A stretch of 64,000 nucleotides of DNA from a virus. A model generated the notes under the pieces. It was not told where the DNA came from and searched no databases. It saw only the letters and a program-made list of their open reading frames with translations. Shown in pieces: positions 20,263 through 48,823 of this stretch (the first letter of the stretch is position 1; the number at the start of each line of letters is the position of its first letter). The translations under genes were made by a program, and so were the position numbers. Where the stretch lies: the IMG/VR virus record IMGVR_UViG_3300036790_000270, positions 1 through 64,000 of that record. One strand, 5' to 3'.

Positions 20263-20338
20263 TACGCTTACCTGGTAGTGCCCTACGGCCGGTCCCATCC
20301 CCCGGAGCTAGGAGTCCTGACCGAAGGGCGTCCTGGCC
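20263..20338 (+). promoter_or_regulatory. Late leader with P1-CGG-P2-AGC RNA motif, copy A (portal)
   Basis: -10 TACGCT (20263-20268). P1 CCTA/TAGG (20282-20285, 20309-20312), CGG at 20286-20288, P2 CCGG/CCGG (20289-20292, 20302-20305), AGC at 20306-20308. Competing P3 AGGAGTCC/GGGC-TCCT (20310-20317, 20326-20334) overlaps P1' and contains the AGGG site. GTG follows at 20339. Confidence 0.65.
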
Positions 20339-22063
20339 GTGGGGCTGATCGACAACATCCGGGCATCCGCTTACGAAGAGCGGGTGATCGGCGGTGTCCC
20401 GTGGAAGCCCTGGGAGAACCCGTTCTGGCGGTTTGACACCGGCGGCCCGGTGCACCCGACGCGGCAGTTTTACGGGCCGAACGAGGCGATGGGGCTGCCC
20501 GCCCTGTACGCGGGCGTCAAGCTGCTCGCCGACAACGCCGCCTCGCTGCCGCTGCGCGTCTACCAGAATTACAACGACGCCACCGGCTGGCCGAAGCACC
20601 GGCTGTGGAACGGCCCCACCATCTTCGATAAGCCGTCAGTCATCGGGACGTTCTTCGACTGGATGGCGCAGGCGATGGTGTCGGTCCTGCTGCAGGGCAA
20701 TGCCTGGGGGTTCATCTCCGGCAAGGACGGCTACGGGTTCCCGACCGGCATCGAGTGGATTCCGCCGGAGGACGTCTACGTCCTGGAGCCGCAGGACCAG
20801 CAGACCGCCAACCCGCTGCGCGCCAAGGTGTTCGTCTTCGGCCGCGAGGTCACCTGGTACGGTCCCGACGCCGAGGTCTTCCACGTCCGCGGCATCACGC
20901 TGCCCGGCCGCATCGAGGCGATCAGCCCGCTGCGCGCGTTCGCGCTGACGGTCCTGGCGGGCAAGGAGGCCCAGCGGTACGGCACCAGCTGGTACGAGGC
21001 CGGCGGCTTCCCGCCCGGTACCTTCCAGAACGCCGAGATGGAAGTTAACGCAGCTCAGGCGGCTGAGATCCGCGCGTCACTGGTGACCAGCCTGCGGCGC
21101 AGGGAGCCTTTGGTTTTCGGTCGCGACTGGGATTACAAGCCGGTCACCGTGCCGCCGAGCGAGGCGCAGTTCATCGAGGCGATGCAGCTGAACGCCACGC
21201 AGATCGCGGCGATCCTCAACCTGCCGCCCGACCGGCTGGGCGGTACCCGCGGGGACTCGCTGACGTACTCGACGTCGGAGCAGAGCACCCTGCAGATCAT
21301 CGAGGCGCTGCGCCCGTGGCTGACCCGGTTCGAGCAGAGCTTCTTCGACCTGCTGCCCCGCAACCGCTTCACCCGCTTCTACACCGATGCGCTACTGAAG
21401 ACAGACCTGGAAGCCCGGATGAACAACTACCAGGTGATGCGGAACATCGGCATGCGCACCGCTGACGAGATCCGCGAGCTGGAGGACCTGCCGCCGCTGC
21501 CGTCCGGGGTCGGTTCCGAGGAACTGCCACTGACCACCATGAACGCCATGGGCACCCGGGCCGGCGCCATCCCCAAGAGCTTCCTGAAGAGCGTCGTGCT
21601 GGAGATGGACATCGCCGCCGACCGGCTGATCAAGCTGGAGAAGACGATGATCAGCCAGGGCAAGCTACCGCAGGCAACAGCCCCTGCTCCCGGCATGCCA
21701 GGCCAGCCCGGCGCGGGAGGCTCAAGTAGCGGAAGGCCGGGCGCAAGTAGCGCCTCCCCGGCGCCCAGTGCCCCCGTAGGCGGCAAGGTCCCGATCGGGC
21801 TGCCGAATGCCCCGCTGCCGCTCACCCAGGACCCGGCGTCGTTCCTGTCCTCGCTGATCAGCGTGCAGCGCGACATGAGCTGCGACTACGAGATGCGCGA
21901 GCTGGCCCGGCACCTCTACAACTCCATCGCCGAGCGTGCCAACCGGATTGCCCGGGACGAGCCGGACGAGTACGTGCCGTCCTCCCACCTGCTGGCACCG
22001 TGGGTGCCTGGCCGCGACGACCTGCGCGAGGTCATTCTTTCCGCGAACGGGCACCGCAAGTGA
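20339..22063 (+). CDS. Portal protein (HK97/phage-portal family)
   Basis: 574 residues. The N-terminal part FYGPNEAMGLPALYAGVKLLADNAASLPLRVY is the usual opening of HK97-type portals. A conserved core follows (LLQGNAWGFI, GIEWIPPEDVYV, EVFHVRGI, GGFPPG, FGRDWDYKPV), then the crown/stem region around GGTRGDSLTYSTSEQ (about 300-315). The C-terminus is Pro/Gly/Ser-rich (about 440-500) and then helical. It forms the twelve-subunit vertex through which TerL pumps DNA. The GTG start lacks a free Shine-Dalgarno; the site lies in leader hairpin P3. Confidence 0.95.
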   Translation: MGLIDNIRASAYEERVIGGVPWKPWENPFWRFDTGGPVHPTRQFYGPNEAMGLPALYAGVKLLADNAASLPLRVYQNYNDATGWPKHRLWNGPTIFDKPSVIGTFFDWMAQAMVSVLLQGNAWGFISGKDGYGFPTGIEWIPPEDVYVLEPQDQQTANPLRAKVFVFGREVTWYGPDAEVFHVRGITLPGRIEAISPLRAFALTVLAGKEAQRYGTSWYEAGGFPPGTFQNAEMEVNAAQAAEIRASLVTSLRRREPLVFGRDWDYKPVTVPPSEAQFIEAMQLNATQIAAILNLPPDRLGGTRGDSLTYSTSEQSTLQIIEALRPWLTRFEQSFFDLLPRNRFTRFYTDALLKTDLEARMNNYQVMRNIGMRTADEIRELEDLPPLPSGVGSEELPLTTMNAMGTRAGAIPKSFLKSVVLEMDIAADRLIKLEKTMISQGKLPQATAPAPGMPGQPGAGGSSSGRPGASSASPAPSAPVGGKVPIGLPNAPLPLTQDPASFLSSLISVQRDMSCDYEMRELARHLYNSIAERANRIARDEPDEYVPSSHLLAPWVPGRDDLREVILSANGHRK

Positions 22064-22147
22064 AACGTTGCACGTCAGGTAGCAGGTGCCTACCATTTTC
22101 AATAGACGTGGCGCGTACTGCGCTGTTGCGTTTTAAGGAGACGACAG

Positions 22148-23533: not shown

Positions 23534-23537
23534 GCCC

Positions 23538-23876
23538 GTGGATGACGGCAAGATAGAGCGGCTGCTTCAGGCGATGGAGCAGAGACTCACTGAGAAACTG
23601 GAGATCATCATGTCTGAGCAGAGCCAGCAGCAGATCGACGTCAATAACGCGGGAACGGCCATCATCGCGCTGCTTACTGACATGCAGGCGGACATCAGCA
23701 CGATCGGTACCGGCGTCGCGAGCATCACGGCCGCGCTTGCCGCCCTGCCCGCCTCCGTCGACACCACGCAGCTTGATGCCGACGTCGCGCAGATCGCGGC
23801 AGCGCAGGCGAGCCTCGACGCGGCGGCTGCCTCGGTCGCTAACGCCGTGCCCCCGGTGACCCCGCCCGCGAGCTAA
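23538..23876 (+). CDS. Coiled-coil protein, possible scaffold (112 aa)
   Basis: The GTG follows the protease stop by four bases. MDDGKIERLLQAMEQRLTEK begins a helical region that continues through Ala/Asp/Gln-rich heptads (DADVAQIAAAQASLDAAAAS). No folded-domain signature. The position between protease and capsid genes and the helical composition fit a scaffolding or delta-like assembly protein, but this is context only. A terminator hairpin follows. Confidence 0.65.
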   Translation: MDDGKIERLLQAMEQRLTEKLEIIMSEQSQQQIDVNNAGTAIIALLTDMQADISTIGTGVASITAALAALPASVDTTQLDADVAQIAAAQASLDAAAASVANAVPPVTPPAS

Positions 23877-23906
23877 GCTGAAGCCCTCGTCTGGTAGCGA
23901 GGCCCG

Positions 23907-23949
23907 GAACCCTTAATAAGCCCTGTGCTTGTTAAGGGTTCTGCCTTTT
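23907..23949 (+). terminator. Intrinsic terminator before the capsid gene
   Basis: 10-bp stem GAACCCTTAA/TTAAGGGTTC (23907-23916, 23932-23941) followed by TGCCTTTT. It ends the portal/protease transcript, and a new promoter follows at 23970. Confidence 0.75.
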
Positions 23950-23969
23950 CCGCTGTCAGGTTTGTGCCG

Positions 23970-24046
23970 TAGTCTTGAATTTGAGTTAGCCACGGCCGCG
24001 CGATCTGCGCTGGAGCTGGTCCATCCTGAAACAGGGAGGACTGGCA
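23970..24046 (+). promoter_or_regulatory. Late leader with P1-CGG-P2-AGC RNA motif, copy F (capsid)
   Basis: -10 TAGTCT (23970-23975). P1 GCCA/TGGT (23989-23992, 24017-24020), CGG 23993-23995, P2 CCGCGC/GCGC-T-GG (23996-24001, 24007-24013), AGC 24014-24016. P3 (24018-24028 with 24032-24042, one A-A mismatch) takes over P1' and buries GGGAGG. GTG at 24047. Confidence 0.65.
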
Positions 24047-25414: not shown

Positions 25415-25416
25415 TA

Positions 25417-25490: not shown

Positions 25491-25508
25491 TGCCGTACAG
25501 GAGATGAC

Positions 25509-26024: not shown

Positions 26025-26030
26025 CCCTCC

Positions 26031-27690: not shown

Positions 27691-28043
27691 ACGTGCACCA
27701 CAAGCGGATGCTGAAGCTATTCGGGCTGGTGGCTGCGCTGGTGGTGGTTCTCGGCACCGTGTACGGCGAGGTAACCCCGGCTGGCCCGTGGGACGGCATG
27801 TACTTCGCCGTGGTAACCGTGACGACCGTCGGGTACGGCGACATCGTCCCGCACGGCTGGGCCGCGCACCTGGTCGCCCTGGCGATCATGATCCTGATCA
27901 TCCCCGCCTGGGCCAGCGTGTTCTCCCTGCTTACCACCGCTATGCTGGCCAGCCACGTAGACGCGCAGACTCACCGCCAGACTGCCGAGATCAAGGAGCA
28001 CGTCAGTGACACTATGGGCAACGCGCAAGCCGGGCAGCAGTGA
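27687..28043 (+). CDS. K+-channel-like two-span membrane protein (118 aa)
   Basis: TM1 spans about 9-27 and TM2 about 60-85. Between them, the pore-helix/selectivity-filter segment FAVVTVTTVGYGDIVP (TVGYGD, residues 47-52) matches the potassium-channel signature exactly. The 118-residue length fits a minimal pore domain that would assemble as a tetramer. A polar helical tail follows. Start TTG 27687 overlaps the previous stop; GTG 27693 or ATG 27708 are alternatives. Virus-coded minimal K+ channels are known from algal viruses. Here it might depolarise the membrane during entry, exclusion or lysis, which is inference. Confidence 0.85.
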   Translation: MNVHHKRMLKLFGLVAALVVVLGTVYGEVTPAGPWDGMYFAVVTVTTVGYGDIVPHGWAAHLVALAIMILIIPAWASVFSLLTTAMLASHVDAQTHRQTAEIKEHVSDTMGNAQAGQQ

Positions 28044-28281
28044 CCTCATTACCGTCAGCATGACCTACGGCCCGATTACCGCCGCGGTTGAAGAGAACAG
28101 TGGTCACTTGCTTAGTTTCTGGCATGAGCTCGGCCGCCTGGTTGCCGTGCAGGACAACGAGAAGCGCGCGCAGGCCGGCTGGCAGCGGTACGCAGCGCAT
28201 CACACGGACGGCCCTATGCCTACCTGGGAGGGACTGCACGAGGAAGAACGCCAGCACTGGATTGCCGCGTTCACGGAATAG
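28006..28281 (+). CDS. Hypothetical protein (91 aa)
   Basis: GTG 28006 overlaps the channel gene by 38 bases. ATG 28060 (73 aa) is an alternative that avoids most of the overlap. The conserved-looking part is MTYGPITAAVEENSGHLLSF...WQRYAAHHTDG...WEGLHEEERQHWIAAF, a helical protein with His/Trp pairs. No family assigned. Confidence 0.65.
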   Translation: MTLWATRKPGSSDLITVSMTYGPITAAVEENSGHLLSFWHELGRLVAVQDNEKRAQAGWQRYAAHHTDGPMPTWEGLHEEERQHWIAAFTE

Positions 28282-28359
28282 CCCGCCTGGGGGTGGCGCG
28301 GTGGTTAGCTCCAGTCAGCGCTGTTCCCCGACGGGGGTGACTGGAATGCCGTGCTGGGC

Positions 28360-28375
28360 TAGGCTGTGCCTCATG
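28360..28375 (+). promoter_or_regulatory. Leaderless promoter of gene 28373
   Basis: TAGGCT (28360-28365), seven bases, then ATG. Confidence 0.5.
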
Positions 28376-28789
28376 AATAGTACTAGATGGTTTAACGGGG
28401 TAGTTCCGATGCCTAGCGTGTTGGCGATCACGGCTTACCTGTCTTACGAGTCTTTCACTGTTCAATACGGGAACGGTGAGTTCGGTCTAGCTGACTACTC
28501 GACAGCAGCAGATGTAGACACAGCAGTTGCGACGTTTGTTGAGGATGCGGGATTCCCGTGGATTGCTGTCGGTAGCGCGGGAAATATTCCGGATAACGAC
28601 AACGAAGTAGTTAACTGGACGCTCGCCATCAATCTCGGTAGTTGGGCGCTAACTTCATTGTCGGATAGTGGAGACGGACTAAGGGTTAACGGTAGCGGGA
28701 GTACGCCGGGTTACGCTCCGTGGGATAACTTTGCTGATGCCATGGCCGCGATCCTGTCTATCACGGGAAATTCTGCGTGGCCATCGTAG
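28373..28789 (+). CDS. Low-GC hypothetical protein (138 aa)
   Basis: MNSTRWFNGVVPMPSVLAIT begins a mostly beta, acidic protein with Trp/Asn-rich strands (VVNWTLAINLGSWALTSL) and a Gly/Ser loop (GLRVNGSGSTPGY). GC content is visibly lower than in neighbours and codon choice differs (more T- and A-ending codons), which suggests recent acquisition. It has a leaderless promoter, as phage moron genes often have their own. Function unknown. Confidence 0.7.
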   Translation: MNSTRWFNGVVPMPSVLAITAYLSYESFTVQYGNGEFGLADYSTAADVDTAVATFVEDAGFPWIAVGSAGNIPDNDNEVVNWTLAINLGSWALTSLSDSGDGLRVNGSGSTPGYAPWDNFADAMAAILSITGNSAWPS

Positions 28790-29490
28790 AACCTGTCCAC
28801 TGGTACCATTTCTTCTGCGGTAATGACGTTCTCTCCATGTGGGACGTGCCGCTCACTGAGCACGTCGCTGGCCTGCGCTCCGCTGGCTTTGACGGGAAGT
28901 GCTTGGTCGGTCTTGTCGGTGGTGCGGGGCAACAGGAAGACGCCCGGCGGTGGCTTGCTGCGTACTGGCCGGAAGCTGAAATCGCAGTAACGGCAGAAGA
29001 CGGCTTTGAACAGGTGACCCTAGCCGCACTGCACATGTGGTGTCAGGATGCCGACCCGGAAATACCAGTTTTTTACGGGCACACGAAGGGCGCTTTCTCT
29101 AACCACCCTGTTGCTGCCCCGTGGCGCCGGGCGATGACCGCAGTGTGCGTTGCCCGGTGGCGGGATCGCGTGGCTGACCTGGCGGCCGTTGACGCGGCCG
29201 GGCTGCACTGGCTGACACCGGAGGCATTTCCCGGTTACGTGAGCAGCCCGTTCTTCGGGGGTAACTTCTGGTGGGCGACAGCCGGGTACCTCGCGTCCCT
29301 CGCCCCGGTAGACCCCGGGGACGTTAACCGCTACAGCGCGGAAAGCTGGGTCGGCACCGGGAACCCGGTAGTGCGAGCGCTCAGCACCGCATGGCCGGAG
29401 TACGCGGGCTGCACCTTCCCGCCGGGGCGGCCGTTATGCGTATCCTCGCGTCGCACGACGGCGGCTCAGGGTGCAGCTGGTACCGGATGA
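28777..29490 (+). CDS. Glycosyltransferase-like protein (237 aa)
   Basis: The core VFYGHTKGAFSNHPVAAPWR...FFGGNFWWATAGYL (about 98-175) matches a family of putative capsule/LPS glycosyltransferase-like proteins that share Y-x-H-x-K-G and F-x-G-N-F-W-W-A. The N-terminal third (HWYHFFCGNDV, GFDGKCLVGLVG) may be a Rossmann-like part. GTG start overlaps the previous gene. The C-terminal 18 residues overlap the next gene. First of the sugar-modification block. Confidence 0.65.
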   Translation: MAIVEPVHWYHFFCGNDVLSMWDVPLTEHVAGLRSAGFDGKCLVGLVGGAGQQEDARRWLAAYWPEAEIAVTAEDGFEQVTLAALHMWCQDADPEIPVFYGHTKGAFSNHPVAAPWRRAMTAVCVARWRDRVADLAAVDAAGLHWLTPEAFPGYVSSPFFGGNFWWATAGYLASLAPVDPGDVNRYSAESWVGTGNPVVRALSTAWPEYAGCTFPPGRPLCVSSRRTTAAQGAAGTG

Positions 29491-30503
29491 TCATGCCGCT
29501 GACCGCGGTGAACGACCTCGCTGACGGGATCAGCGTTACATTCCGGGCTGGCGGCGGGAAGCTGATGAAAAACCCGCACCCCATGGTGACGGTCGCTGAC
29601 GGTGATAATGCCGACCTGGTTGTCTCCCAGCGGGCCAGTGAGTACCGCGGCCTCGGCCTGTGGCGCCGGTGGGGCAGCTCCCCGGCGCGGCGCACCGTTT
29701 ACGAGAACGACGACGACGTCTTCTCCATCACCCCGGAGAACGATGCTGCCTACGCTTCCTACAAAGAAGGCACCGACGTCCGGGAGGCGACCCTCCGCTA
29801 CTGCCGCACCGCCAACCTGATCACCACCACCAGCCCGCACCTAGGCGACCGGTTCCGGGAAATGTGCCCGCAGGTCCCGGTGGAGGTGCTGCCCAACTAC
29901 ATTCCCCGATGGGTCCTAGACTTGCCGCGAGACCCATTCGACAGGCGGCTCCGGATCGGCTGGGCCGGCGGCTCCTCGCACGCGCGGGACATCCACACCG
30001 CGACGTCGTCGGTCCGCCGGTTCATGACGCGGTTCCCCGGCTGGGACCTGTACCTGAACGGCATCGACTACCGGCGCCAGTTCCGCTGCCCGCCCGAGCG
30101 GTCCTTCCACGTCCCGTGGATACACGTTACCGACGAGCCGCAGCTTTACTACCGGGCTATCGACTTCGACATCGGCATCTGCCCGCTGCTGTCCACCCAG
30201 TTCAGCCGGTCCAAGAGCTGGATTAAGTCACTGGAGTACTTCAGCCGGGGCATTCCCGTCGTGGCCAGCGACGTCGAGCCGTACCGCCGGTTCATCGACC
30301 ACGGTGTCGACGGGTTCCTCTGCAAGACCGACCATGAATGGCTGAAGTACCTGTCCCTGCTGGCGGGCGATGAGGAACTCCGGCTGAAGATGGGCGCCGC
30401 GGCGAAAATGAAGGCTTCCGCTAACGTCATGGAAGACCATGTGCAAGAGTGGGTCAACGCTTACACGATGCTGTTCCCGATCGGCTGGGAGTATAAGGGC
30501 TGA
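29436..30503 (+). CDS. Glycosyltransferase (GT-B/GT4-like, 355 aa)
   Basis: MRILASHDGGSGCSWYRMIM opens a typical GT-B N-terminal domain. The C-terminal domain carries LRIGWAGGSSHARDI (about 160), YYRAIDFDIGICPLLSTQFSRSKSWIKSLEYFSRGIPVVAS (about 230-270, the E-x7-E-like donor region) and a FLCKTDHEWLKYL end. These proteins transfer a sugar from a nucleotide donor. Its start lies 55 bases inside the previous gene; a 15-codon extension is possible but lacks support. Confidence 0.85.
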   Translation: MRILASHDGGSGCSWYRMIMPLTAVNDLADGISVTFRAGGGKLMKNPHPMVTVADGDNADLVVSQRASEYRGLGLWRRWGSSPARRTVYENDDDVFSITPENDAAYASYKEGTDVREATLRYCRTANLITTTSPHLGDRFREMCPQVPVEVLPNYIPRWVLDLPRDPFDRRLRIGWAGGSSHARDIHTATSSVRRFMTRFPGWDLYLNGIDYRRQFRCPPERSFHVPWIHVTDEPQLYYRAIDFDIGICPLLSTQFSRSKSWIKSLEYFSRGIPVVASDVEPYRRFIDHGVDGFLCKTDHEWLKYLSLLAGDEELRLKMGAAAKMKASANVMEDHVQEWVNAYTMLFPIGWEYKG

Positions 30504-30506
30504 TGT

Positions 30507-30869
30507 ATGAGCCGAAACTGTTACGTTAGGGGTGCCCTGCCAGCCTGCGAGCAGCAAGGATGCCAGGCTCCGGCGCTAGCCGCGCTGTCACGCCGCCTGT
30601 CTGAGCAGGCGCACACGGTCCTAGAGACGCTAGACAAGAAGGGAACGCAGATGCAGCCGACTAAGGCGCTGTGGTGCGAGCAGAGCGGCCACCCGTTCAG
30701 CGAGAAGGACCCGGACGTTCAGGTGCTTACGATTACCGGCCGTAGCCCGGACGGGGAGACGGTAGAGGAGTCGCGGACCAGCTGCGGGGAGTGCGCCGCT
30801 GTGGCGAAGACCCGGCTCGGCAAGGTACGCAACAGCCAGGTTTCCCAGCTTCCGCCTAGCGACTCGTAA
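30507..30869 (+). CDS. Small hypothetical protein (120 aa; possibly 72 a shorter form)
   Basis: ATG 30507 gives a 48-residue Ala/Arg/Cys-rich extension; an internal ATG at 30651 has a better AAGGGA site and would give 72 residues beginning MQPTKALWCEQSGHPFSEKD. The latter part has WCEQSGHPF...SCGECAAVAKTR, a CxxC pair and a Cys/His that could bind one zinc. Coupled to the epimerase gene. Function unknown. Confidence 0.7.
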   Translation: MSRNCYVRGALPACEQQGCQAPALAALSRRLSEQAHTVLETLDKKGTQMQPTKALWCEQSGHPFSEKDPDVQVLTITGRSPDGETVEESRTSCGECAAVAKTRLGKVRNSQVSQLPPSDS

Positions 30870-31832
30870 ATGAAGTACCTGGTAACCGGCGGGGCCGGGT
30901 TCGTCGGCAGCAGCCTGGTGAAGCGGCTCGTTGCCGACGGGCACGAGGTCACCGTCCTCGACGACATGTCCCGGGGCAAGCCTGAGCGGCTAGACGGCGT
31001 TAGCTGTCAGGTTAAGCCAGGCGACATACGCGATTCTTACCTGGTCAAGCGGGCGATGCACGGCTGCGACGCCGTCGTGCACCTTGCCTACCTTCAGGGT
31101 ACGCAGACGTTCTACGCTGAGCCCCGCCAGGTTCTTGACGTCGCCGTGCGCGGAATGCTTACCGTCCTGGACGCGTGCGAGGCCACCGGCTGCGCCGACC
31201 TGCTGCTGGTCTCCTCGTCGGAGGCGTACCAGGTAGCTCCTGTCGTGCCTACTCCCGAGGACATACCGCTGACCGTCCCCGACGTGCTCAATCCCCGCTA
31301 TTCCTACGGCGGCGGCAAGATCGCCTGCGAGCTGATGGCCCTGGCCTGGCAGCGGACTGGGGTCCTCGACCGCCTGGTCATCGCCCGGCCGCACAATATC
31401 TACGGCCCCGACATGGGCCGCGAGCACGTTATCCCCGAGTTCTGCGACCGGATGACCGTATTGAACCGGGAGCAGCCCGAGGGAACTATCCCGTTTCCCG
31501 TTCAGGGCACCGGTCAGGAAACCAGGTCGTTCTGCTATATCGATGACTGTATTGACCAGCTGGCGGTACTTGCCCGCGAAGACTGCTCCGTTGAGGGTGT
31601 CTACCACGTCGGCACCATGGACGAGTGGCGCATCGAGGACGTCGCCGGGCTGATCGCCTGGAATTACGGCCGCGACATTAAGCTCATGCCGGGTACCCTG
31701 CCCAAGGGCTCCCCGCCCCGCCGGCTGCCCGATACTGCTAAGATCCGGTCACTGCGTACCGAGTGGCACCAGACTCCGTTCCGCGAGGGTCTCACCAAGA
31801 CCGTCGAATGGTACCGCGCTAATGAGCGGTGA
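30870..31832 (+). CDS. NAD-dependent nucleotide-sugar epimerase/dehydratase (320 aa)
   Basis: Extended short-chain dehydrogenase. NAD site TGGAGFVG (residues 6-13), LDDMSRG after strand 2, VHLAYLQGT, LLVSSSEAYQV with the active Ser region, and YSYGGGK with the Tyr-x3-Lys pair (about 149-153). RPHNIYGPD and the C-terminal RSFCYIDD complete the family pattern. Related enzymes are UDP-glucose epimerases and dTDP-sugar dehydratases; substrate is not readable. It is followed by a sugar C-methyltransferase and a cupin isomerase, so it probably makes or remodels a deoxysugar. No gap to the preceding stop. Confidence 0.92.
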   Translation: MKYLVTGGAGFVGSSLVKRLVADGHEVTVLDDMSRGKPERLDGVSCQVKPGDIRDSYLVKRAMHGCDAVVHLAYLQGTQTFYAEPRQVLDVAVRGMLTVLDACEATGCADLLLVSSSEAYQVAPVVPTPEDIPLTVPDVLNPRYSYGGGKIACELMALAWQRTGVLDRLVIARPHNIYGPDMGREHVIPEFCDRMTVLNREQPEGTIPFPVQGTGQETRSFCYIDDCIDQLAVLAREDCSVEGVYHVGTMDEWRIEDVAGLIAWNYGRDIKLMPGTLPKGSPPRRLPDTAKIRSLRTEWHQTPFREGLTKTVEWYRANER

Positions 31833-32946
31833 GACTGACACTTGCGGCGGCTGCGGCACTGCCGGCCTGATCCCGGTTTTTGACATGGGACGCCAGCCTC
31901 TTGCCGAGGGCGCGTCCTCCCGCAGCTACCCCCTGTGCCTGGTCAAGTGCCCGCGCTGCGGCCTTGTCCAGCTTGACTACATCGTCGACCCGGCCGAGGT
32001 ATTCCCGAAGGACCACCCGTACTCGACAGGAAACTCTGCGGCGCTGCGCGAGCATTACGGCCGTCTAGCCCGGGACCTCGCTACAAACCTGTTCACCGAT
32101 GACGTCGTCGTTGACATCGGCGCCAACGACGGGACGCTGCTAGCCTGCTACCCGCCGGGCGGCCTGGTGAAGGTCGCCGTTGAGCCGACGGACCAGGGAA
32201 AGAAGATCCCGGCGGGCATCACCTGGGAGAAGGGCTCCTTCACTGCGAATCTCGCCATAGGTATTCGCGAGGGATACGGCCCGGCCAAGGTGATCACCGC
32301 GATGAACGTTCTCGCGCACGTGCCCGACGTGCACGATTTCCTCGACGGCGTTGCTGAGCTGCTGCACGACGACGGGGTGTTCGTCACTGAGAACCACGAC
32401 CTGTACAGCATCACCGAGGGCCTGCAGATCGACACGATTTACCATGAGCACCTGCGCTACTACACCGTCGGCACTCTCGCTCACCTGCTAGAGCAGCACG
32501 GGCTGCACGTCACCCGCTCAGAGCCGACCCCGATGCACGGCGGGTCGTTCCGCGTTCGGGCGCGCAAGGTCGCCCCTGGTTTCCAGAGGCGGGCCAGGTC
32601 CGCGGCGACCGCGCTGCGCGGCATGCTGTGGCAGCTCGTCGACAAGCACCAGGCTGTCTACGGTATCGGCGCAACCACCCGCGCGACCCCGCTGATCCAT
32701 TACGCCGGCATCAAGGACCTCGTCGACTGCGTTTGCGAGCGGCCAGGTAGCGACAAGATAGGCACGTGCATCCCAGGTACCGCGATCGAGGTAGTCGACG
32801 AGGCCCGGCTCATTACCGACCAGCCGCCGTACGCCCTGCTGTTCGCCTGGCACATCGCTGACGACATCGTTCCGAAGCTGCGCGCGGCCGGGTACAAGGG
32901 GAAGTTCATCGTGCCGCTGCCGAGCCCGGAGGTCCTTGATGACTGA
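31822..32946 (+). CDS. Sugar C-methyltransferase (TylC3/NovU-like, 374 aa)
   Basis: Three-domain layout of nucleotide-sugar C-methyltransferases: an N-terminal zinc domain (CGGCGTAGL...CPRCG, about 8-48), a SAM-binding core (VVVDIGANDGTLL, about 95-107; ENHDLYSITEGLQIDTIYHEH with the catalytic His/Tyr segment), and a C-terminal domain starting near YGIGATTRATPL. Such enzymes add a methyl to carbon 3 of a 4-keto deoxysugar. Overlaps the epimerase gene by 11 bases. Complete. Confidence 0.9.
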   Translation: MSGETDTCGGCGTAGLIPVFDMGRQPLAEGASSRSYPLCLVKCPRCGLVQLDYIVDPAEVFPKDHPYSTGNSAALREHYGRLARDLATNLFTDDVVVDIGANDGTLLACYPPGGLVKVAVEPTDQGKKIPAGITWEKGSFTANLAIGIREGYGPAKVITAMNVLAHVPDVHDFLDGVAELLHDDGVFVTENHDLYSITEGLQIDTIYHEHLRYYTVGTLAHLLEQHGLHVTRSEPTPMHGGSFRVRARKVAPGFQRRARSAATALRGMLWQLVDKHQAVYGIGATTRATPLIHYAGIKDLVDCVCERPGSDKIGTCIPGTAIEVVDEARLITDQPPYALLFAWHIADDIVPKLRAAGYKGKFIVPLPSPEVLDD

Positions 32947-33310
32947 GCTAGGCCGCTTCGAGGACGAGCGCGGTGTCATTCAGGACCTGCTAGCCGGCCC
33001 TGTCGATTCCGTCACCGAGATCTTTACGCGGGCCGGGGCCGTCCGTGGTAATCATGTGCATGCTGAGACTGTCCAGTGGACTTACGTTGTCTCCGGCAGG
33101 CTCCGCGTAGTGCATCAGTCGGCGGGCGCTGAGCCGGCTGCTAACGAATGCGGTTCCGGCGAGCTGATCTGCGATCCGATGGGCGTTGCCCACGCCTGGC
33201 AGGCAGTGGAGGACACGACAGTTCTCGTCTTCACGCGGGGCCCGCGCTCGGGGGCGGACTACGAGGACGACGTGCAGCGGCTAGCCCCGGGGGACAGGCT
33301 GATTCCGTGA
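32939..33310 (+). CDS. Cupin sugar isomerase-like protein (123 aa)
   Basis: A cupin barrel of the WxcM/FdtA type: an opening FEDERGVIQDLLAG, then GAVRGNHVHAETVQWTYVVSGRLRV (metal or substrate His-rich strand), and CDPMGVAHAWQAVEDTTVLVF. dTDP-4-keto-6-deoxyglucose 3,4-ketoisomerases share this pattern. ATG 32939 overlaps the upstream stop. Direct linkage with the epimerase and C-methyltransferase supports deoxysugar synthesis. Confidence 0.85.
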   Translation: MTELGRFEDERGVIQDLLAGPVDSVTEIFTRAGAVRGNHVHAETVQWTYVVSGRLRVVHQSAGAEPAANECGSGELICDPMGVAHAWQAVEDTTVLVFTRGPRSGADYEDDVQRLAPGDRLIP

Positions 33311-34011
33311 GCACTGCCGTTATCATCCCTACCTTCGGCCGCGCGGGCAAGATGGCGGCCGTCACCCGGAACATCCTGGAGGCCAGCCACGCGCCGCTGA
33401 ACGTGTTCTTCGTGGTGGAGCGAGACGACGCGGAGTCTGTAGCGGAAGCCGGGCGGCTATTTGACGAGAACATCGTCAGCGTAGTAAACACCCGGAAGCA
33501 GTCATATGCCGGTGCGGTCAATACCGCCGTCAGTGCGCTGCTAGACCTAGAGTGGGAGTACTTCTTCCTGGGCGCGGACGACCTCGACTTCAAGCCCGGC
33601 TGGGATACCGAGGCCCTGCGGGCAGCTCAAGACGGCGCGCTGGTGATCGGCACTAACGACCTGCATAACCCTTACGTCCTAGCCGGAACTCACGCCACGC
33701 ACGTCCTGGTGCACCGGGATTACGTCACTGACCCGCGTTATGCCTACGACCCGGATATGGCGGGGCAAGTGATGTTCGAGGGTTACGATCACAACTTCGT
33801 CGACACTGAGTTCGTTGACGCGGCCAAGGCAGCTGGTGTCTTTACCCCGTGCATGACCTCCGTAGTGGAGCACCTCCACCCCGACTGGGGCCTGTCCCCG
33901 TGGGATGCCACGTACGCGAAGACCCGTGCGCGTATTCATGATGATCACGGGCTATTCCGGTCTCGCGAGCACTTGTGGACAGCGCACCCGGACGGAAGGC
34001 AGCTGCTGTGA
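33307..34011 (+). CDS. Glycosyltransferase, GT2-like (234 aa)
   Basis: GTG 33307 overlaps the cupin stop as GTGA. STAVIIPTFGRAGKMAAV is the classical GT-A start. EYFFLGADDLDFKPGW (about 80-95) contains the metal-binding Asp motif. The C-terminal half (AGTHATHVLVHRDYV, FEGYDHNFVDTEFV) has the acceptor-side residues. It is a processive-type or single-sugar transferase by family. An upstream extension in the cupin frame is rejected. Confidence 0.88.
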   Translation: MSTAVIIPTFGRAGKMAAVTRNILEASHAPLNVFFVVERDDAESVAEAGRLFDENIVSVVNTRKQSYAGAVNTAVSALLDLEWEYFFLGADDLDFKPGWDTEALRAAQDGALVIGTNDLHNPYVLAGTHATHVLVHRDYVTDPRYAYDPDMAGQVMFEGYDHNFVDTEFVDAAKAAGVFTPCMTSVVEHLHPDWGLSPWDATYAKTRARIHDDHGLFRSREHLWTAHPDGRQLL

Positions 34012-34637
34012 CCATTCCACTCGTCAGCATCATCACCTCGACCTGGCAGCGGAACGAGCGGCTGCTCAACCGGTGCATCCCGTCGGTCCAGGCACAGGCG
34101 TACCCGAAAGTCGAGCACGTCATCGTCTCCGACGGCCCTGACCCGGACCTCGCTGACCAGATTGCCCTCCTGGACAGCCGGCTCGCATTCGCCCACCCGG
34201 TGCACTTCCTCGAACTGCCCGAGCACGACCCGGAGCGGCACTGGGGGCACCATGCGCGGCTGGCGGCCCTCGCGCGTGCCAAGGGTGACCTGATCGGCTA
34301 CTGCGATGACGATGACTCGCTGCGCCCGGACCACATCCGGCTGCTCGCGCAGGCACTGAAAGACGACCCGTCAGCTAGCTGGGCGTACTCCGTCATGGCG
34401 TCCTACAGCCACGCGGGTGTCTGCGAGATCGGTCACGGCGCTCCCGCGGGCGGCCAGATCGGCACACCGGTGATCATGCACCGCCGCGAGGCCCTGCAGC
34501 ACGGCACCTGGGGGCCGGCCTCGCCGATGGAAGACTGGCAGCTGGTGCAGCGCTGGACGGAAGCCGGGCTTACCCACGCGCATATCCAGGATGTCACCGT
34601 TGACGTCTGGCCCTCTGCGTACCATGAGCATTTCTGA
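34008..34637 (+). CDS. Glycosyltransferase, GT2-like (209 aa)
   Basis: GTG 34008 shares bases with the previous stop. TIPLVSIITSTWQRNERLLN is the GT-A opening, and DLIGYCDDDDSLRPDHI (about 93-109) holds the metal-binding Asp cluster. SPMEDWQLVQRW (about 178-189) matches the E-D-W acceptor/base segment. Second GT2 enzyme in tandem, so at least two different linkages are likely built. Confidence 0.9.
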   Translation: MTIPLVSIITSTWQRNERLLNRCIPSVQAQAYPKVEHVIVSDGPDPDLADQIALLDSRLAFAHPVHFLELPEHDPERHWGHHARLAALARAKGDLIGYCDDDDSLRPDHIRLLAQALKDDPSASWAYSVMASYSHAGVCEIGHGAPAGGQIGTPVIMHRREALQHGTWGPASPMEDWQLVQRWTEAGLTHAHIQDVTVDVWPSAYHEHF

Positions 34638-34639
34638 CC

Positions 34640-34813
34640 ATGGAGCGTGTTGTCCTGCCGGTGTGGCTCGTGCTCATGCTCGGCATGCCCGGGTTCATGA
34701 TCGTGATGCTCGTATCCGGGTACCCGCAGGGACTCGCCATGATCTTCGTCATGGTCATCATGAGCTGGGTAGCAGGGCAGATACTTGAAGACTTGTCCCG
34801 GGGGAATTCCTGA
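34640..34813 (+). CDS. Small two-span membrane protein (57 aa)
   Basis: MERVVLPVWLVLMLGMPGFM is a first hydrophobic helix, and GLAMIFVMVIMSWVAGQIL is a second. It begins two bases after the glycosyltransferase stop. Methionine-rich. It could anchor the glycosylation enzymes or be holin-like; the sequence does not decide. Confidence 0.65.
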   Translation: MERVVLPVWLVLMLGMPGFMIVMLVSGYPQGLAMIFVMVIMSWVAGQILEDLSRGNS

Positions 34814-34822
34814 GCCGCGTGG

Positions 34823-34837
34823 TAGCGTGACCCCATG
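34823..34837 (+). promoter_or_regulatory. Leaderless promoter of gene 34835
   Basis: TAGCGT (34823-34828), six bases, then ATG. Confidence 0.5.
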
Positions 34838-34996
34838 AGCACGCCTGAGCCACTTGACGAAGAGCAGGCACCCAAGGTAGAGGTCCGTGGCGGCGACCGG
34901 GAAGCCGACTGGAACACGCCGCTGTCGTACCTGCCTGCTTACGAGGATGCCGGTGCCGGCTGCGGTCCGGACTGCGCCTGCCACGAGGATGAGTGA
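34835..34996 (+). CDS. Small acidic protein (53 aa)
   Basis: MSTPEPLDEEQAPKVEVRGG is acidic and Pro-rich, and the C-terminus CGPDCACHEDE carries three Cys and a His that could bind metal. The stop overlaps the next start as GTGA. A leaderless -10 element lies upstream. Function unknown. Confidence 0.6.
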   Translation: MSTPEPLDEEQAPKVEVRGGDREADWNTPLSYLPAYEDAGAGCGPDCACHEDE

Positions 34997-35583
34997 GCGG
35001 GCAGGTACGGCAGCGGCGTGACCAGCTGTTCCTTCAGGCTGCCCTCGTAATCCGGCAGGTTCAGCAGGCTGAGCACCGGTGGTTCGCCCAAGGGGACCCG
35101 GCTTCTCCTACGCTGCCCTGGATGCCGTTCCAGCCCGCCGACTTCCTCTCGATCGTCTTCGAGTGCGTCCCGGAGATGAAAGGCGGCCGGTGGTTCATTG
35201 ACGTCGGGTGCGGGCCCGGTACCAAGATGCAGCTTGCCCGGCAGTTCTTCGGGCTTGAGGCCGAGGGCATCGAGATCGACCGGCCGATGGCGGAAGCGGC
35301 GGCTGCCTACGGCACTGTCTTCGCGGCTGACGCCCTGGACACGCCTCCCGGTTTCTATGCCGAGTACGACCTGGTCTGGCTGTACCGGCCGTTCCGTGAC
35401 GTGCAGCTGGAAGAGAAGCTTGAGTCCCGCGTCATGAACGAGATGAAGCCCGGCGCGATCCTGGCCGGCGGCAGCTGGGAGCACTGCCCGGCGGAGTACG
35501 GCTGGATACCCGTCATGGACGACTGGGAGCTGCGCCGCGGCGCCTGGATGAAGCCACGCCCGGTTGCTGACCTAGTGCTGTGA
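34993..35583 (+). CDS. SAM-dependent methyltransferase-like protein (196 aa)
   Basis: WFIDVGCGPGTKMQLARQFF (about 66-85) is motif I of class I methyltransferases, followed by EAEGIEIDRPMAEAA (acidic motif II) and FAADALDTP. Family members methylate small molecules, sugars or proteins. It is the second methyltransferase of the sugar block and might O-methylate a glycan. Coupled on both sides by GTGA overlaps. Confidence 0.85.
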   Translation: MSGQVRQRRDQLFLQAALVIRQVQQAEHRWFAQGDPASPTLPWMPFQPADFLSIVFECVPEMKGGRWFIDVGCGPGTKMQLARQFFGLEAEGIEIDRPMAEAAAAYGTVFAADALDTPPGFYAEYDLVWLYRPFRDVQLEEKLESRVMNEMKPGAILAGGSWEHCPAEYGWIPVMDDWELRRGAWMKPRPVADLVL

Positions 35584-35861
35584 AAAACCTGGCGACCTAC
35601 CTGGCGCACTTCCACCTAACGGGATTCGGCTGGTACTGGGTCGTCTGGTTCGTCTTCGGTTTCGGCGTGCCCGAAGCGTACGGACTGCTCCGCAACACCC
35701 AGGACACCCTGAGCTGGCAGTTCTGGGGACTTGAGCGCATTAACTTCCAGCATCCTTTCGATTTCTCTGACTGGACCTGGGAGCACTACCTGATCGGCGT
35801 CATGCTGCTAGCCGGCTTCGTGTGGCTTTTCTTTCACCTGGTTGACGGTATCTGGCGCTAG
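35580..35861 (+). CDS. Trp-rich membrane protein (93 aa)
   Basis: KNLATYLAHFHLTGFGWYWV begins the first hydrophobic segment (about 14-32). A soluble middle (NTQDTLSWQFWGLERINFQH) precedes a second span (YLIGVMLLAGFVWLFFHLV, about 69-87). Ten tryptophans in 93 residues are notable. Short two-span phage proteins of this sort are often annotated as holins; that call is weak here. Confidence 0.7.
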   Translation: MKNLATYLAHFHLTGFGWYWVVWFVFGFGVPEAYGLLRNTQDTLSWQFWGLERINFQHPFDFSDWTWEHYLIGVMLLAGFVWLFFHLVDGIWR

Positions 35862-35882: not shown

Positions 35883-35947
35883 TAACCTTGAGCTGAACCG
35901 CCCTACGGCCGCATCCGGAGCTAGGGCACCCGACGAAGGGTGTCCAC
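35883..35947 (+). promoter_or_regulatory. Late leader with P1-CGG-P2-AGC RNA motif, copy B
   Basis: -10 TAACCT (35883-35888). P1 CCCTA/TAGGG (35901-35905, 35922-35926), CGG 35906-35908, P2 CCG/CGG (35909-35911, 35916-35918), AGC 35919-35921. P3 GGGCACCC/GGGTGTCC (35924-35931, 35938-35945) uses the same GGG as P1' and holds the AAGGG site. GTG at 35948. Confidence 0.65.
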
Positions 35948-38734: not shown

Positions 38735-38806
38735 TAAACTCAAGGGGAACTGCCGCGGCCTGAACCAGGAGCCGGCATCGGGATTGACCACGATGCCGGA
38801 GTCCTG
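38735..38806 (+). promoter_or_regulatory. Late leader with P1-CGG-P2-AGC RNA motif, copy C
   Basis: -10 TAAACT (38735-38740). P1 TGCCG/CGGCA (38751-38755, 38773-38777), CGG 38756-38758, P2 CCTG/CAGG (38759-38762, 38766-38769), AGC 38770-38772. P3 CGGCATCG/CGATGCCG (38773-38780, 38791-38798) reuses all of P1'. GGAG and ATG follow. Confidence 0.65.
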
Positions 38807-39223
38807 ATGACGATCCTCCTGTCCAGCACTTTCACCGACAACCTGCTCGGCACGGGAACTGAGGGCGTCGCCACCCAGATCGGCAGCGGCACGCTCATTA
38901 TTTACAGTGGCGCTGCCCCGGCGGGCCCGAACGAGTCCCTGTCCGGCAACACGGCGCTGGCGACTTTTACGTTCTCAGTTGCGGGCAGCCAGGGCTCTCC
39001 GGCCGGCGGCGTGATGGACCTGGCGTTCTCCGCTACCACTGTCACCGCCGCCGCCTCCGCGACCGCGACGTTCTTCCGCATTGCCAGCTCGGGCAGCACC
39101 GCCCTGATCCAGGGGACGGTAGCTGTCAGCGGCGGGGACTTCAACCTGTCCAGCACGGCCATCACCTCCGGCGACAACGTAACCATTACCGGCACGCCGA
39201 CGATCTCCTGGCCGGTGAGCTAA
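38807..39223 (+). CDS. Beta-rich structural-type protein (138 aa)
   Basis: MTILLSSTFTDNLLGTGTEG runs into a repetitive Ser/Thr/Ala/Gly beta protein (NTALATFTFSVAGSQGSPAG, ITSGDNVTITGTPTISWPVS). Similar in style to 36649. Its own promoter and RNA leader suggest high or timed expression. A head-decoration role is possible. Confidence 0.7.
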   Translation: MTILLSSTFTDNLLGTGTEGVATQIGSGTLIIYSGAAPAGPNESLSGNTALATFTFSVAGSQGSPAGGVMDLAFSATTVTAAASATATFFRIASSGSTALIQGTVAVSGGDFNLSSTAITSGDNVTITGTPTISWPVS

Positions 39224-44461: not shown

Positions 44462-44527
44462 GGAAGTTCCGGGAACAAGAAGCCATTCGACGCCGCTGCC
44501 GCCCGCGATCTCGACGAGACCCGGTGA
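44459..44527 (+). CDS. 22-residue leader peptide
   Basis: MGSSGNKKPFDAAAARDLDE and two more residues end in GTGA, overlapping the next start. It appears to be translated from a leaderless transcript and probably serves to couple translation into the tail-terminator-like gene. Confidence 0.45.
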   Translation: MGSSGNKKPFDAAAARDLDETR

Positions 44528-46363: not shown

Positions 46364-46503
46364 GCGACAGCTGGATGTGCGGGTACCGGTGGCAGGACGG
46401 GGATAACACCGAGCTGCACGAGACGCATGTCTGCGGCCTGCTGACCAACGGCGGCCAGCACACGCACGACTGCATTGTCTCGGTGTGCCGGGGGACGCAG
46501 TGA
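46360..46503 (+). CDS. Tiny Cys/His protein (47 aa)
   Basis: MSDSWMCGYRWQDGDNTELH, then THVCGLL, HTHDCIVSVC. Four Cys and several His suit one zinc site. GTG coupled to the previous stop (GTGA) and its stop to the next start. Confidence 0.6.
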   Translation: MSDSWMCGYRWQDGDNTELHETHVCGLLTNGGQHTHDCIVSVCRGTQ

Positions 46504-46655
46504 TCTGCCAGCCGTGCCGGGACAACGCCCACGACGTGTGCCCCGAAGTAGCGCGCCGGGAGCACCGGGCTGACCTGAACGCCATTGAGCTTAAGGGCGG
46601 CCCGTGGTGTGACTGCCAGCACAAGCCGCGGGCTGAAGTGCAGCGCCGCATGTAG
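46500..46655 (+). CDS. Tiny Cys/His protein (51 aa)
   Basis: MICQPCRDNAHDVCPEVARR and PWCDCQHKPR give CxxC, HxxxC and CxCxH elements, probably one zinc ion, in a basic peptide. GTGA overlap with the preceding gene. It is the last gene before the tail-tube promoter. Confidence 0.6.
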   Translation: MICQPCRDNAHDVCPEVARREHRADLNAIELKGGPWCDCQHKPRAEVQRRM

Positions 46656-46682
46656 CCCTATCCCGGCAGGCAGAGCGCCGCT

Positions 46683-46763
46683 TACACTAGATAAGTAGAG
46701 CCGAGGCCACGTGTTACCACGTCGGAGCCGGACCCGTTCCTTTTTTCGGAAAAGGGGTCTGAC
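46683..46763 (+). promoter_or_regulatory. Late leader with P1-CGG-P2-AGC RNA motif, copy E (tail tube)
   Basis: -10 TACACT (46683-46688). P1 CCG/CGG (46701-46703, 46729-46731), AGG in place of CGG (46704-46706), P2 CC-ACGTG/CACGT-C-GG (46707-46713, 46718-46725), AGC 46726-46728. P3 CGGACCC/GGGTCTG (46729-46735, 46755-46761) plus TTCC/GGAA holds the AAAAGGGG site. GTG at 46764. Confidence 0.6.
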
Positions 46764-47216
46764 GTGGGAAGAATCCACGGTCGCAACGGCATGGTCTATA
46801 TGGCCCTGCTCGCTCAGGGCACCGCGCAGCCACTCGCTTACGTCAGTGACTGGACCATGAACTTCACCGTGGCGAAGGTGGACGTCACTGCCCTCGGCGA
46901 CGCCAACCTCGTCTGGGTAGCCGGCCTGCCCGACGCCTCCGGTGACTTCACCGGTTTCTTCGACACGGCGACTTCGCAGACCTACCAGTCCGCGGTTGAC
47001 GGCCAGCCTCGTAACTTCTACCTGTACCCGACGCTCGTCGCGGTCAACGGCGGCCCCGGAAACGCGACCGTCAACGTCGGCCAGTACTTCTTCGGCACGA
47101 TCCTCCCCGACTTCAGTTCCGCTGGCGGAGTTGCCGCCGCGGTCACCATGAAGTCAACCTGGAACGCTGCCTCCCAGGTGCAGCGGTACCCGAGCACGGG
47201 CGTTCCCGGAACCTGA
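46764..47216 (+). CDS. Major tail (tube) protein (150 aa)
   Basis: A compact beta-rich protein: MGRIHGRNGMVYMALLAQGT...YVSDWTMNFTVAKVDVTALGDANLVWVAGLPDASGDFTGFFD. This is the usual opening of siphovirus tube proteins (insert strand W-T-hydrophobic, D-V-T, then a D-x-S/T-G-D-F-x-G pattern). The C-terminal VTMKSTWNAASQVQRYPS fits too. It stacks as hexamer rings around the tape measure. Position directly before the chaperones and tape measure supports this. Confidence 0.88.
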   Translation: MGRIHGRNGMVYMALLAQGTAQPLAYVSDWTMNFTVAKVDVTALGDANLVWVAGLPDASGDFTGFFDTATSQTYQSAVDGQPRNFYLYPTLVAVNGGPGNATVNVGQYFFGTILPDFSSAGGVAAAVTMKSTWNAASQVQRYPSTGVPGT

Positions 47217-47228
47217 TCCTGACGTGGC

Positions 47229-47262
47229 GACGGCCCTTTCCCCGGACAGGAAAAGGGCCGTC
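47229..47262 (+). terminator. Hairpin after the tail-tube gene
   Basis: 11-bp stem GACGGCCCTTT/AAAGGGCCGTC (47229-47239, 47252-47262), 13 bases past the stop. No T-run follows (TCCGG), so partial termination or mRNA 3'-end protection is likely. Confidence 0.6.
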
Positions 47263-47346
47263 TCCGGATGGCGTTGGAACGCTGGGTTTCGTGTGCTCTT
47301 TGGCCTCCGGTGAAACTCACCCTATATGAGCGAACCGGAGAATTCA

Positions 47347-47823
47347 GTGCCCCCTCGCAAGACCCGTACCGTCGCGCCGCGCCCCGTTCAGGACGTCCCG
47401 CTGGAGGGCGAGGAGCCGGTCAAGGTGGACGGCCGGACCAGTGCCGCCCGGCAGGCCCGCCGCCTGCAGATGGCGACCGCGGAGGAAAAGGTGCGGCTGC
47501 CCGAGGAGGAGCGCGCCGTTGAGGTGACCGACGGGCAGCTGGTCGCGCCGATCAAGGAGAAGTACTTCCGGCTGCAGGAGTCCCTCGGCCTGATGCCGCT
47601 GATGGAGTGGGCGGCGGCGCAGGACGACCTGGACGCCGACAACCAGGTGCAGCTGGCCGGCCTGTTCCGGTTGCTGAAGGACCTGGTCGCGCCGGAGGAG
47701 TGGGCGGAGTTCCGCAGCTTCACCCGGGAAGCCAAGTGCATCGATGAGGACTTCATCGGCTTCGTCAACGCCGGGATGGAAGCGATGGCGGCCCGCCCTA
47801 CCGGGGAGCCCGCAGCCTCCTGA
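47347..47823 (+). CDS. Tail assembly chaperone, first frame (158 aa)
   Basis: GTG 47347 has a GGAG site seven bases ahead and a TATATG -10 at 47322; the in-frame ATG 47326 overlaps that -10. A basic N-terminus and helical middle precede the gpG-like helical core KYFRLQESLGLMPLMEWAAAQDDLDADNQVQLAGLFRLLKDLV...EEWAEFRSFTREAKCIDEDFIGFVNAGME. Such chaperones bind the tape measure during tail assembly. The frame for the second half continues in the -1 frame after 47748. Confidence 0.85.
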   Translation: MPPRKTRTVAPRPVQDVPLEGEEPVKVDGRTSAARQARRLQMATAEEKVRLPEEERAVEVTDGQLVAPIKEKYFRLQESLGLMPLMEWAAAQDDLDADNQVQLAGLFRLLKDLVAPEEWAEFRSFTREAKCIDEDFIGFVNAGMEAMAARPTGEPAAS

Positions 47824-48272
47824 AGTGGCTGCTGGCGAACTTCGCCAAGGTAAACGGTGACTTCCTGCGCGCTCACGGGCACGGCGTCGAGATGCTGTCG
47901 GCCCGTGAGCTGTGCGACGTCGCCTACGCCGCGATCATCGCGGACATGGAGCGTCACCATTACGCCCTGGTGGCTGCCGGGGCGCAGTGGAAGGACAGCC
48001 GGGACCCGCTCGGGGACGACATCGCCCGGTTCGAGGAGCGCATCGGGCTGCGGGACAACCCGGAGGCCCTCGCCCTCGCCCTGCACAAGCAGTTCCTCGC
48101 CGACCAGGGCAAGGAATGGGATGACACGCCTGTCGGCGCCGGGAACGGCGAGTGGTGGGACCAGGACGCCGAGTTCACTGACATGCGTGACCTGGACGCC
48201 GAGGCGAAGCGGCGCGCTGCGGCAGCGAAGAACTACGGGCTGTTCGCCAAGGACCGGAAGGGTAAAAAGTAG
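47820..48272 (+). CDS. Tail assembly chaperone, second frame (gpT-like)
   Basis: This frame is open from 47748 and reads LKWLLANFAKVNGDFL from 47820, into ATG 47892 and AYAAIIADMERHHYAL..., a usual gpT-like helical body with W/D-rich end (NGEWWDQDAEFTDM). It is normally made only as a -1 frameshift fusion to the first frame, in an overlap of 47748-47823. The best candidate site is the ACC GGG GAG run at 47800-47808, which is not a perfect slippery heptamer. Independent initiation at ATG 47892 is the alternative. Confidence 0.75.
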   Translation: MKWLLANFAKVNGDFLRAHGHGVEMLSARELCDVAYAAIIADMERHHYALVAAGAQWKDSRDPLGDDIARFEERIGLRDNPEALALALHKQFLADQGKEWDDTPVGAGNGEWWDQDAEFTDMRDLDAEAKRRAAAAKNYGLFAKDRKGKK

Positions 48273-48274
48273 TC

Positions 48275-48673
48275 ATGGCAGAGGTGAACCTGGACGCGGT
48301 GGCGATGGACTGGCTGCTGAACGACCCGGCCGGGCCGGTCGGCGTGCTGATCGCGGACATGTCGGAGAAGGCAGCCGCGATTGCCCGGACCGCTGCACCC
48401 GTCATGGTGACCGGCTCGCGCTGGCCGCCGAGCAACTTCTCGCACTGGGGGAAGGCTTTCAACCCGCGCTTCCAGTACGGTGACACGGGCCCGGGTGACA
48501 CGCGGGCGAGTGTGCGGTGGTCCGGGTTCCTGTACAACGGTCTCGGCCAGATGTACTCCGGGGTGAACGTCAACTACGGGCCGACGCTGTACCTGCAGCA
48601 GGGCGGCGGCCGGCACGGGCACGCGATCCGGCACCCGTTCATGACCACGGCGCTGGATACGGTGCAGCTGTGA
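48275..48673 (+). CDS. Small tail-region protein (132 aa)
   Basis: MAEVNLDAVAMDWLLNDPAG...SWPSNF-like SRWPPSNFSHWGKAFNPRFQYGDTGPGDTRASVRWSGFLYNGLGQMYSGVNVNYG holds a beta-rich core (about 48-105) and ends in HAIRHPFMTTALDTVQL. The pattern resembles small head-tail/tail-completion proteins in which a buried strand pair sits on a ring. Located between chaperone and tape measure. Family not proved. Confidence 0.7.
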   Translation: MAEVNLDAVAMDWLLNDPAGPVGVLIADMSEKAAAIARTAAPVMVTGSRWPPSNFSHWGKAFNPRFQYGDTGPGDTRASVRWSGFLYNGLGQMYSGVNVNYGPTLYLQQGGGRHGHAIRHPFMTTALDTVQL

Positions 48674-48749
48674 GCACTGCCGGGCGTAGGTCGTATGGGT
48701 TCCGTAACTGCATTGGCCCGGCAGCTACGCAGTAGAGCGCCCGTCCCCG

Positions 48750-48823
48750 TAGGGTTATTCCGAATGCCGCGGCCTGAACTCCGGGAGCCGGCCTGATCCC
48801 CGCTCCAGAGGAGATGGCGACCG
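48750..48823 (+). promoter_or_regulatory. Late leader with P1-CGG-P2-AGC RNA motif, copy D (tape measure)
   Basis: -10 TAGGGT (48750-48755). P1 GCCG/CGGC (48766-48769, 48789-48792), CGG 48770-48772, P2 CC/GG only (48773-48774, 48784-48785), AGC 48786-48788. A local CTCC/GGAG hairpin (48803-48813) covers the GGAG site, but here no P3 overlaps P1'. GTG at 48824. Confidence 0.55.

Follow-up and report, generated by a model that had tools for sequence, protein, structure and literature searches.

A small RNA motif shared by the leaders of separate transcription units in a virus genome has one strand in common with a second hairpin that is predicted to cover the ribosome-binding site (RBS). The window analyzed here comprises bases 1–64000 of the 117,211-bp IMG/VR virus record IMGVR_UViG_3300036790_000270, a large uncultured soil phage with a probable actinobacterial host, and contains the terminase, portal, protease, capsid, tail tube, and tape measure genes. 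The motif has the core P1-NGG-P2-AGC-P1', where P1 and P2 are stems and P1' is the 3' strand of P1; the competing hairpin is denoted P3. It is near certain that the motif is a real RNA element, and comparison of the leaders strongly supports a selected, covarying, cis-acting RNA common to separate transcription units. The same comparison brings out the adjacent promoter, the strand sharing, and a predicted effect on the RBS, and a P1/P3 switch is likely. On the whole, we consider it probable that the element would serve as a translational ON-switch, stabilized by a trans-acting factor and working like the Com/mom system of phage Mu.

The original prediction had proposed a common fold in six leaders of this window. 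The core is indeed present in all six, and a seventh copy, missed previously, lies on the minus strand. The copies, with covariance model scores, are as follows.

20282–20312, plus strand: copy 1 (portal), P1 CCTA/TAGG, CGG, P2 CCGG/CCGG, AGC; 28.9 bits
23989–24020, plus strand: copy 2 (capsid), P1 GCCA/TGGT, CGG, P2, AGC; 26.3 bits
35902–35925, plus strand: copy 3 (gene of a 106-aa zinc-ribbon protein), P1 CCTA/TAGG; 31.3 bits
38752–38776, plus strand: copy 4 (virion protein, phrog_3758), P1 GCCG/CGGC; 29.9 bits
46701–46731, plus strand: copy 5 (tail tube), P1 CCG/CGG, AGG variant, longer P2; 22.9 bits
48766–48792, plus strand: copy 6 (tape measure), P1 GCCG/CGGC; 30.0 bits
14875–14901 (14873–14903 at its widest), minus strand: copy 7, leader of a conserved 317-aa gene (13895–14848); 32.8 bits

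The covariance model, built from 43 copies and run over the 117-kb record, identified nine copies at E below 0.01 and recovered all six named leaders at E <= 0.01; two of its copies lie outside the window, at about 67225 and 97576 of the record. The single AGG copy that had been noted is the one at 46704, in the tail tube leader. A strict descriptor yielded 7 plus-strand matches, compared to 0.9 (maximum 3) in dinucleotide shuffles, one of the seven (at 47789) having a poor P1 and lying within a gene. The motif is also present in many other IMG/VR contigs. A scan with P1 fixed as CCTA/TAGG gave eight matches, and all six of those re-read had a TANNNT box upstream and an open reading frame (ORF) downstream, while none of the seven matches of a control scan with the mismatched P1 CCCG/TAGG was recognized as a member of the group.

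The case for a selected structure rests primarily on matches that were collected without any demand for pairing. Among 76 leader-like core matches (i.e., those with TANNNT upstream, a Shine-Dalgarno (SD) sequence and an ORF downstream, and a short P2 loop), P1 positions 1–4 pair in 84–87% of cases, compared to 36–42% in 883 background matches. Positions 5–6 pair at or below the background level, and P1 is therefore taken to be 4 bp long. The unpaired N is G in none of these 76 leaders, compared to 23% of background matches. In a curated alignment, from which obvious false matches had been taken out by hand beforehand, the covariation score was 0.555, while shuffles scored 0.206 ± 0.020; the double-change cells numbered 65 against 23.6. 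The set used here, like those of both SD-opening tests described below, includes selection for P1 pairing or given P1 sequences. Because of the hand pruning, the pairing test without structural demand is the cleaner of the two. The covariation agrees with the earlier claim that P1 changes with compensation. Sliding the P1 partner by 1–3 columns reduces pairing from 96% to 18–50%. Orthologous portal leaders have C-G, T-A, or G-C as their fourth P1 pair.

Capsid leaders fetched by protein similarity, and hence unselected for structure, contain the core in 76 of 78 cases and a close variant in the remaining two; here P1 positions 1–4 pair in 94, 93, 98, and 74% of leaders, respectively. No match to the motif was found in Rfam 15, either at the curated score in the window, where only a tRNA matched, or at E <= 5 in nine motif-bearing loci. 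The earlier reading had not recognized it as a known RNA class, and we regard it as a new one. The conserved unpaired bases (N that is never G, GG, and AGC) point to recognition by some partner.

A second, inverted internal loop lies within P2 in at least 17 of the 54 distinct capsid leaders, whereas 0.015 are expected by shuffling; the leaders with this loop all come from more distant relatives. The second loop has AGC on the 5' side and NGG on the 3' side, N being C or T, and about 4 bp separate the two loops. The use of the same unpaired bases twice, in mirror placement, suggests that a partner, perhaps a dimer, binds there.

Alignment of leaders on the -10 box gave the promoter consensus TTGC-N17-TANNCT, in line with the earlier observation of a -10 box shortly upstream of each copy. 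Transcription is expected to start a few bases 5' of P1, and hence the motif is the first element in the RNA. The -10 boxes in the window are listed below.

20263–20268, plus strand: TACGCT, promoter of the portal operon
23970–23975, plus strand: TAGTCT, promoter of the capsid gene
35883–35888, plus strand: TAACCT, copy 3
38735–38740, plus strand: TAAACT, copy 4
46683–46688, plus strand: TACACT, copy 5
48750–48755, plus strand: TAGGGT, copy 6
14912–14917, minus strand: TAAGCT, copy 7

In minimum free energy folds of single leaders, P1 is mostly absent, and a hairpin extending from P1' through the SD sequence appears instead. In this hairpin, P3, the 3' strand of P1 doubles as the 5' strand, and the RBS is predicted to be covered. 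For the plus-strand copies of the window it was located as follows.

20309–20335, plus strand: P3 of copy 1, reusing the P1 3' strand and covering the SD region; the portal GTG start codon is at 20339
24015–24045, plus strand: P3 of copy 2, GCUGGUCC/GGACUGGC plus UCCU/AGGG, which covers the SD and takes in the GC of AGC as well as P1'
35924–35945, plus strand: P3 of copy 3, overlapping P1' by 2 nt only
38773–38798, plus strand: P3 of copy 4, CGGCAUCG.../...CGAUGCCG
46729–46761, plus strand: P3 of copy 5, CGGACCC/GGGUCUG

The P3 hairpin of copy 6 is weak. That of the capsid leader is kept in nine orthologues, and its conserved form includes the GC of AGC; therefore, P3 would compete with the internal loop itself. 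In all but two of 82 leaders, the SD sequence, whose position was assigned by rule, overlaps with bases that are paired. Only one of the 82 has five T in a row, so P3 is not a terminator.

Several comparisons show that P1' matches the sequence downstream of it. Its downstream pairing probability is 0.71, compared to 0.41 in shuffles; within its own leader it reaches 0.709 against 0.526 for P1' strands of other leaders, the own strand being better in 46 of 53 cases (p 1e-8). The predicted cost of opening the SD falls from 7.2 kcal/mol in the free leader to 4.0 when the motif is held formed. The drop amounts to 3.26 kcal/mol; with a shuffled downstream sequence it is 0.63, and with P1 stems exchanged among leaders it is 1.71. 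In 32 leaders fetched by pattern scans after the hypothesis had been set, the drop was 3.63, compared to 0.74 in shuffles (29 leaders fall and none rises). In the window, the effect is clear for copies 1, 2, and 4. Unaided formation of the motif is predicted to cost about 7.4 kcal/mol.

The model that we propose for these observations is as follows. Transcription would start a few bases 5' of P1, and the nascent leader could adopt two mutually exclusive folds. Form A would be the motif, i.e., the 4-bp P1, the conserved NGG/AGC internal loop, and P2; form B would be P3, in which the 3' strand of P1, often together with the GC of AGC, pairs with the sequence up to the SD and covers the RBS. As standard energies favor P3, translation would be low by default. 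A factor recognizing the internal loop would hold form A, shorten P3, and admit ribosomes on all messages together; most likely, it would be a phage-encoded RNA-binding protein made during infection.

Several points weigh against this model or limit it. The SD pairing probability barely shifts when the motif is formed (from 0.69 to 0.64); therefore, the predicted effect is on the strength of the hairpin rather than full exposure of the SD. A simple switch in which the SD becomes unpaired proved weak on testing, whereas the version based on opening energy holds. Four of 52 leaders, among them the tail tube copy of the window (from 3.9 to 4.8), have a higher opening cost when the motif is formed. 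Among the window copies other than 1, 2, and 4, the effect is modest for copy 6, small or absent for copies 3 and 7, and reversed for copy 5. The folding energies are predicted throughout, and the purine-rich internal loop was given the score of a generic loop; were it intrinsically stable, form A could win without a factor. We infer, in addition, the ON direction of form A, the trans-acting factor, and translation as the controlled step.

Other explanations account for part of the data. Under a kinetic timer that needs no ligand, P1 would form first and be displaced by P3 later, so that fresh messages are translated and old ones silenced. The 5' to 3' order of the elements, the lower predicted energy of P3, and the strand sharing between P1 and P3 are all in its favor; yet such a timer needs pairing alone, while the unpaired NGG and AGC are nearly invariant, N avoids G, and a second, inverted loop is kept, and we consider it unlikely. 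Another role at the 5' end would be that of a processive antitermination element, loading a factor on RNA polymerase for long late operons. Antitermination leaders such as the put RNA of phage HK022, nut, and those of the LoaP type are short hairpins with which phage or operon transcripts begin, and they have no tie to an RBS hairpin. The present motif likewise stands at the extreme 5' end of each transcript, beside the promoter, and structural operons are long, but antitermination gives no reason for P1' to match an SD-covering hairpin. No terminator dependence was seen, and terminator-like sites in the 20–60 kb region are about as frequent as in shuffles; this explanation appears quite improbable.

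We give little credence to a small-molecule riboswitch, in which the NGG/AGC loop would bind a metabolite that rises during infection. In translational riboswitches, the aptamer shares a strand with an expression-platform hairpin that hides the RBS, and by prediction and comparison the motif shares a strand with P3 in the same way. Against this, with about 25 nt and a single 3x3 loop the element would be a small metabolite aptamer, and the controlled genes are mostly structural, not metabolic. Further differences are its phage-wide occurrence on virion genes and the lack of a match in Rfam. Finally, a stabilizing 5' hairpin or a DNA operator 3' of the promoter, with no switch at all, would suit the 5'-end location and the strongly conserved GGCC/GGAGC sequence, but compensatory changes in P1 and the freely varying length of P2 favor RNA over a DNA operator, and either version leaves the three-strand complementarity unexplained. 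It seems highly improbable.

The ON-switch interpretation has its closest analogy in the mom leader of phage Mu, where an inhibitory hairpin lies over the start region and the inhibition is relieved when Com, a small zinc-finger protein of the phage, binds to another hairpin close by (PMC6483171). Com acts on one target gene, for DNA modification, and its binding sequence selected in vitro is GAG(N)2CC; in the selected targets, two loops flank a stem of 3–4 nt symmetrically (PMC6483171). P3 of the present leaders is likewise predicted to cover the start region, and the symmetric loops recall the double-loop capsid leaders. In contrast to Com/mom, the present motif serves about nine leaders per genome, the binding sequence is different with no shared motif, and no Com homologue was identified. 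The two systems would resemble each other in working, and no kinship is claimed.

A repeated element upstream of many actinobacteriophage start codons is also known in the form of SAS/ESAS of cluster K mycobacteriophages and cluster EF Microbacterium phages. SAS, GGGATAGGAGCCC, is a conserved RBS sequence of 13 bp that lies 3–7 bp before the start codons of genes in the non-structural half of cluster K genomes; for ESAS, an RNA hairpin received little support in the authors' own work (PMC3203893, PMC7302621). Unlike SAS/ESAS, the present element has covarying stems, is promoter-proximal, and is found mostly on structural genes. Identity with SAS/ESAS was set aside, as the 13-mer is absent from the window leaders, which sit on structural genes. 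Some distant leaders (e.g., L061) have ATAGGAGCCC as the SD inside P3, a partial likeness to SAS/ESAS.

As a trans-acting factor we can offer a single, speculative candidate:

15275–15691, plus strand: 138-aa protein with an N-terminal zinc ribbon

A hidden Markov model search found a homologue in all 10 records examined, while no match was found in 50,697 phage records and no Pfam match to Com. Presence throughout the group is not distinctive, since terminase, portal, and capsid are equally universal. Being universal in the ten records and unmatched elsewhere, the protein is a testable rather than a likely candidate, and its binding to the motif is only a guess. The gene adjoins that of terminase, and the product may be the terminase small subunit; in two distant records (G013 and G014), the zinc ribbon and the C-terminal part are encoded by two separate genes.

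Across ten records, the orthologues that repeatedly carry the motif are those of capsid, portal, the 106-aa zinc-ribbon protein, tail tube, tape measure, the virion protein, and the 317-aa protein. The gene at 38807, formerly described as encoding a surface protein, matches the virion structural family phrog_3758. The motif was also observed upstream of terminase, tail-fibre-like, lysin-like, and epimerase genes, these four labels being assigned by reading the sequences. In the present record, the copy at 97576 precedes a 1241-aa primase/DUF5906/PolA-exonuclease fusion, and another precedes genes of small transmembrane proteins that match spanin weakly. The proposal that the element coordinates late gene expression thus agrees with its position at the portal, capsid, virion protein, tail tube, and tape measure genes and at their orthologues in relatives. 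The late label is too narrow, since the primase fusion, the lysis-like transmembrane gene, and enzymes also bear the motif; it is mostly, not wholly, right. The original prediction offered no mechanism and missed, besides the minus-strand copy, the P1/P3 competition and the inverted second loop, and these two features explain the element better.

Late genes of phages are generally described as being switched on at the level of transcription. We propose, as a tentative extension, a phage-wide translational regulon in which a new class of aptamer, single or as an inverted pair, would let one phage factor turn on translation of the messages for capsid, portal, tail, and lysis proteins, each transcribed from a promoter of its own. 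If so, late-gene control would act on translation instead of through a late sigma factor or an antiterminator, and a large group of uncultured soil phages would co-control its virion genes by an RNA switch on each mRNA. The element would then also be a compact and portable tool for switching translation in high-GC actinobacteria. The search for a factor that binds NGG/AGC is, in any case, a defined problem.

Outside the IMG/VR contigs, the extension to relatives was less successful: no copy was detected (best E 0.1) in the five isolated actinophages Ariel, WXIN, REQ1, Lilbooboo, and RemusLoopin, chosen by kinship in terminase, portal, or capsid. A search for further copies had been suggested, and such copies were found on the minus strand, beyond the window, and upstream of structural genes of relatives, but not in these isolates. 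A DUF397 protein in the phage points to Actinomycetes as the host. A capsid search of the bacterial genomes in the collection found no prophage, none of them being seen to encode the capsid, and a DUF397 search recovered no relative. A 5.7-Mb Embleya replicon was rejected as a carrier, as its matches are at chance level only and the six that were read all lack a -10 box.

Several observations concern the surroundings of individual copies. Two adjacent tRNA-Ser genes (GCT and AGA; 20056–20227) are situated immediately 5' of the portal promoter. Just 5' of the capsid promoter, a strong inverted repeat with a short run of T behind it was noticed by eye at 23907–23950, and the portal unit therefore probably ends there; the terminator scan did not list this repeat. 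At about 97520–97740 of the record (L093:13820–14040), the motif is followed by an ORF of about 14 codons with a strong SD and then by the primase fusion. The stop codon of the short ORF overlaps the GTG start of the fusion, which is possibly coupled to it translationally.

Finally, a phage-encoded Ku protein (PF02735) was observed on the minus strand at L094:5841–6791. In the window, a block of glycosyltransferases and a nucleotide-sugar epimerase (28000–35600) is located between the capsid and tail genes, and a NUMOD4/HNH homing-endonuclease-like gene (59811–60158, minus strand) lies on the opposite strand between two very large tail genes.
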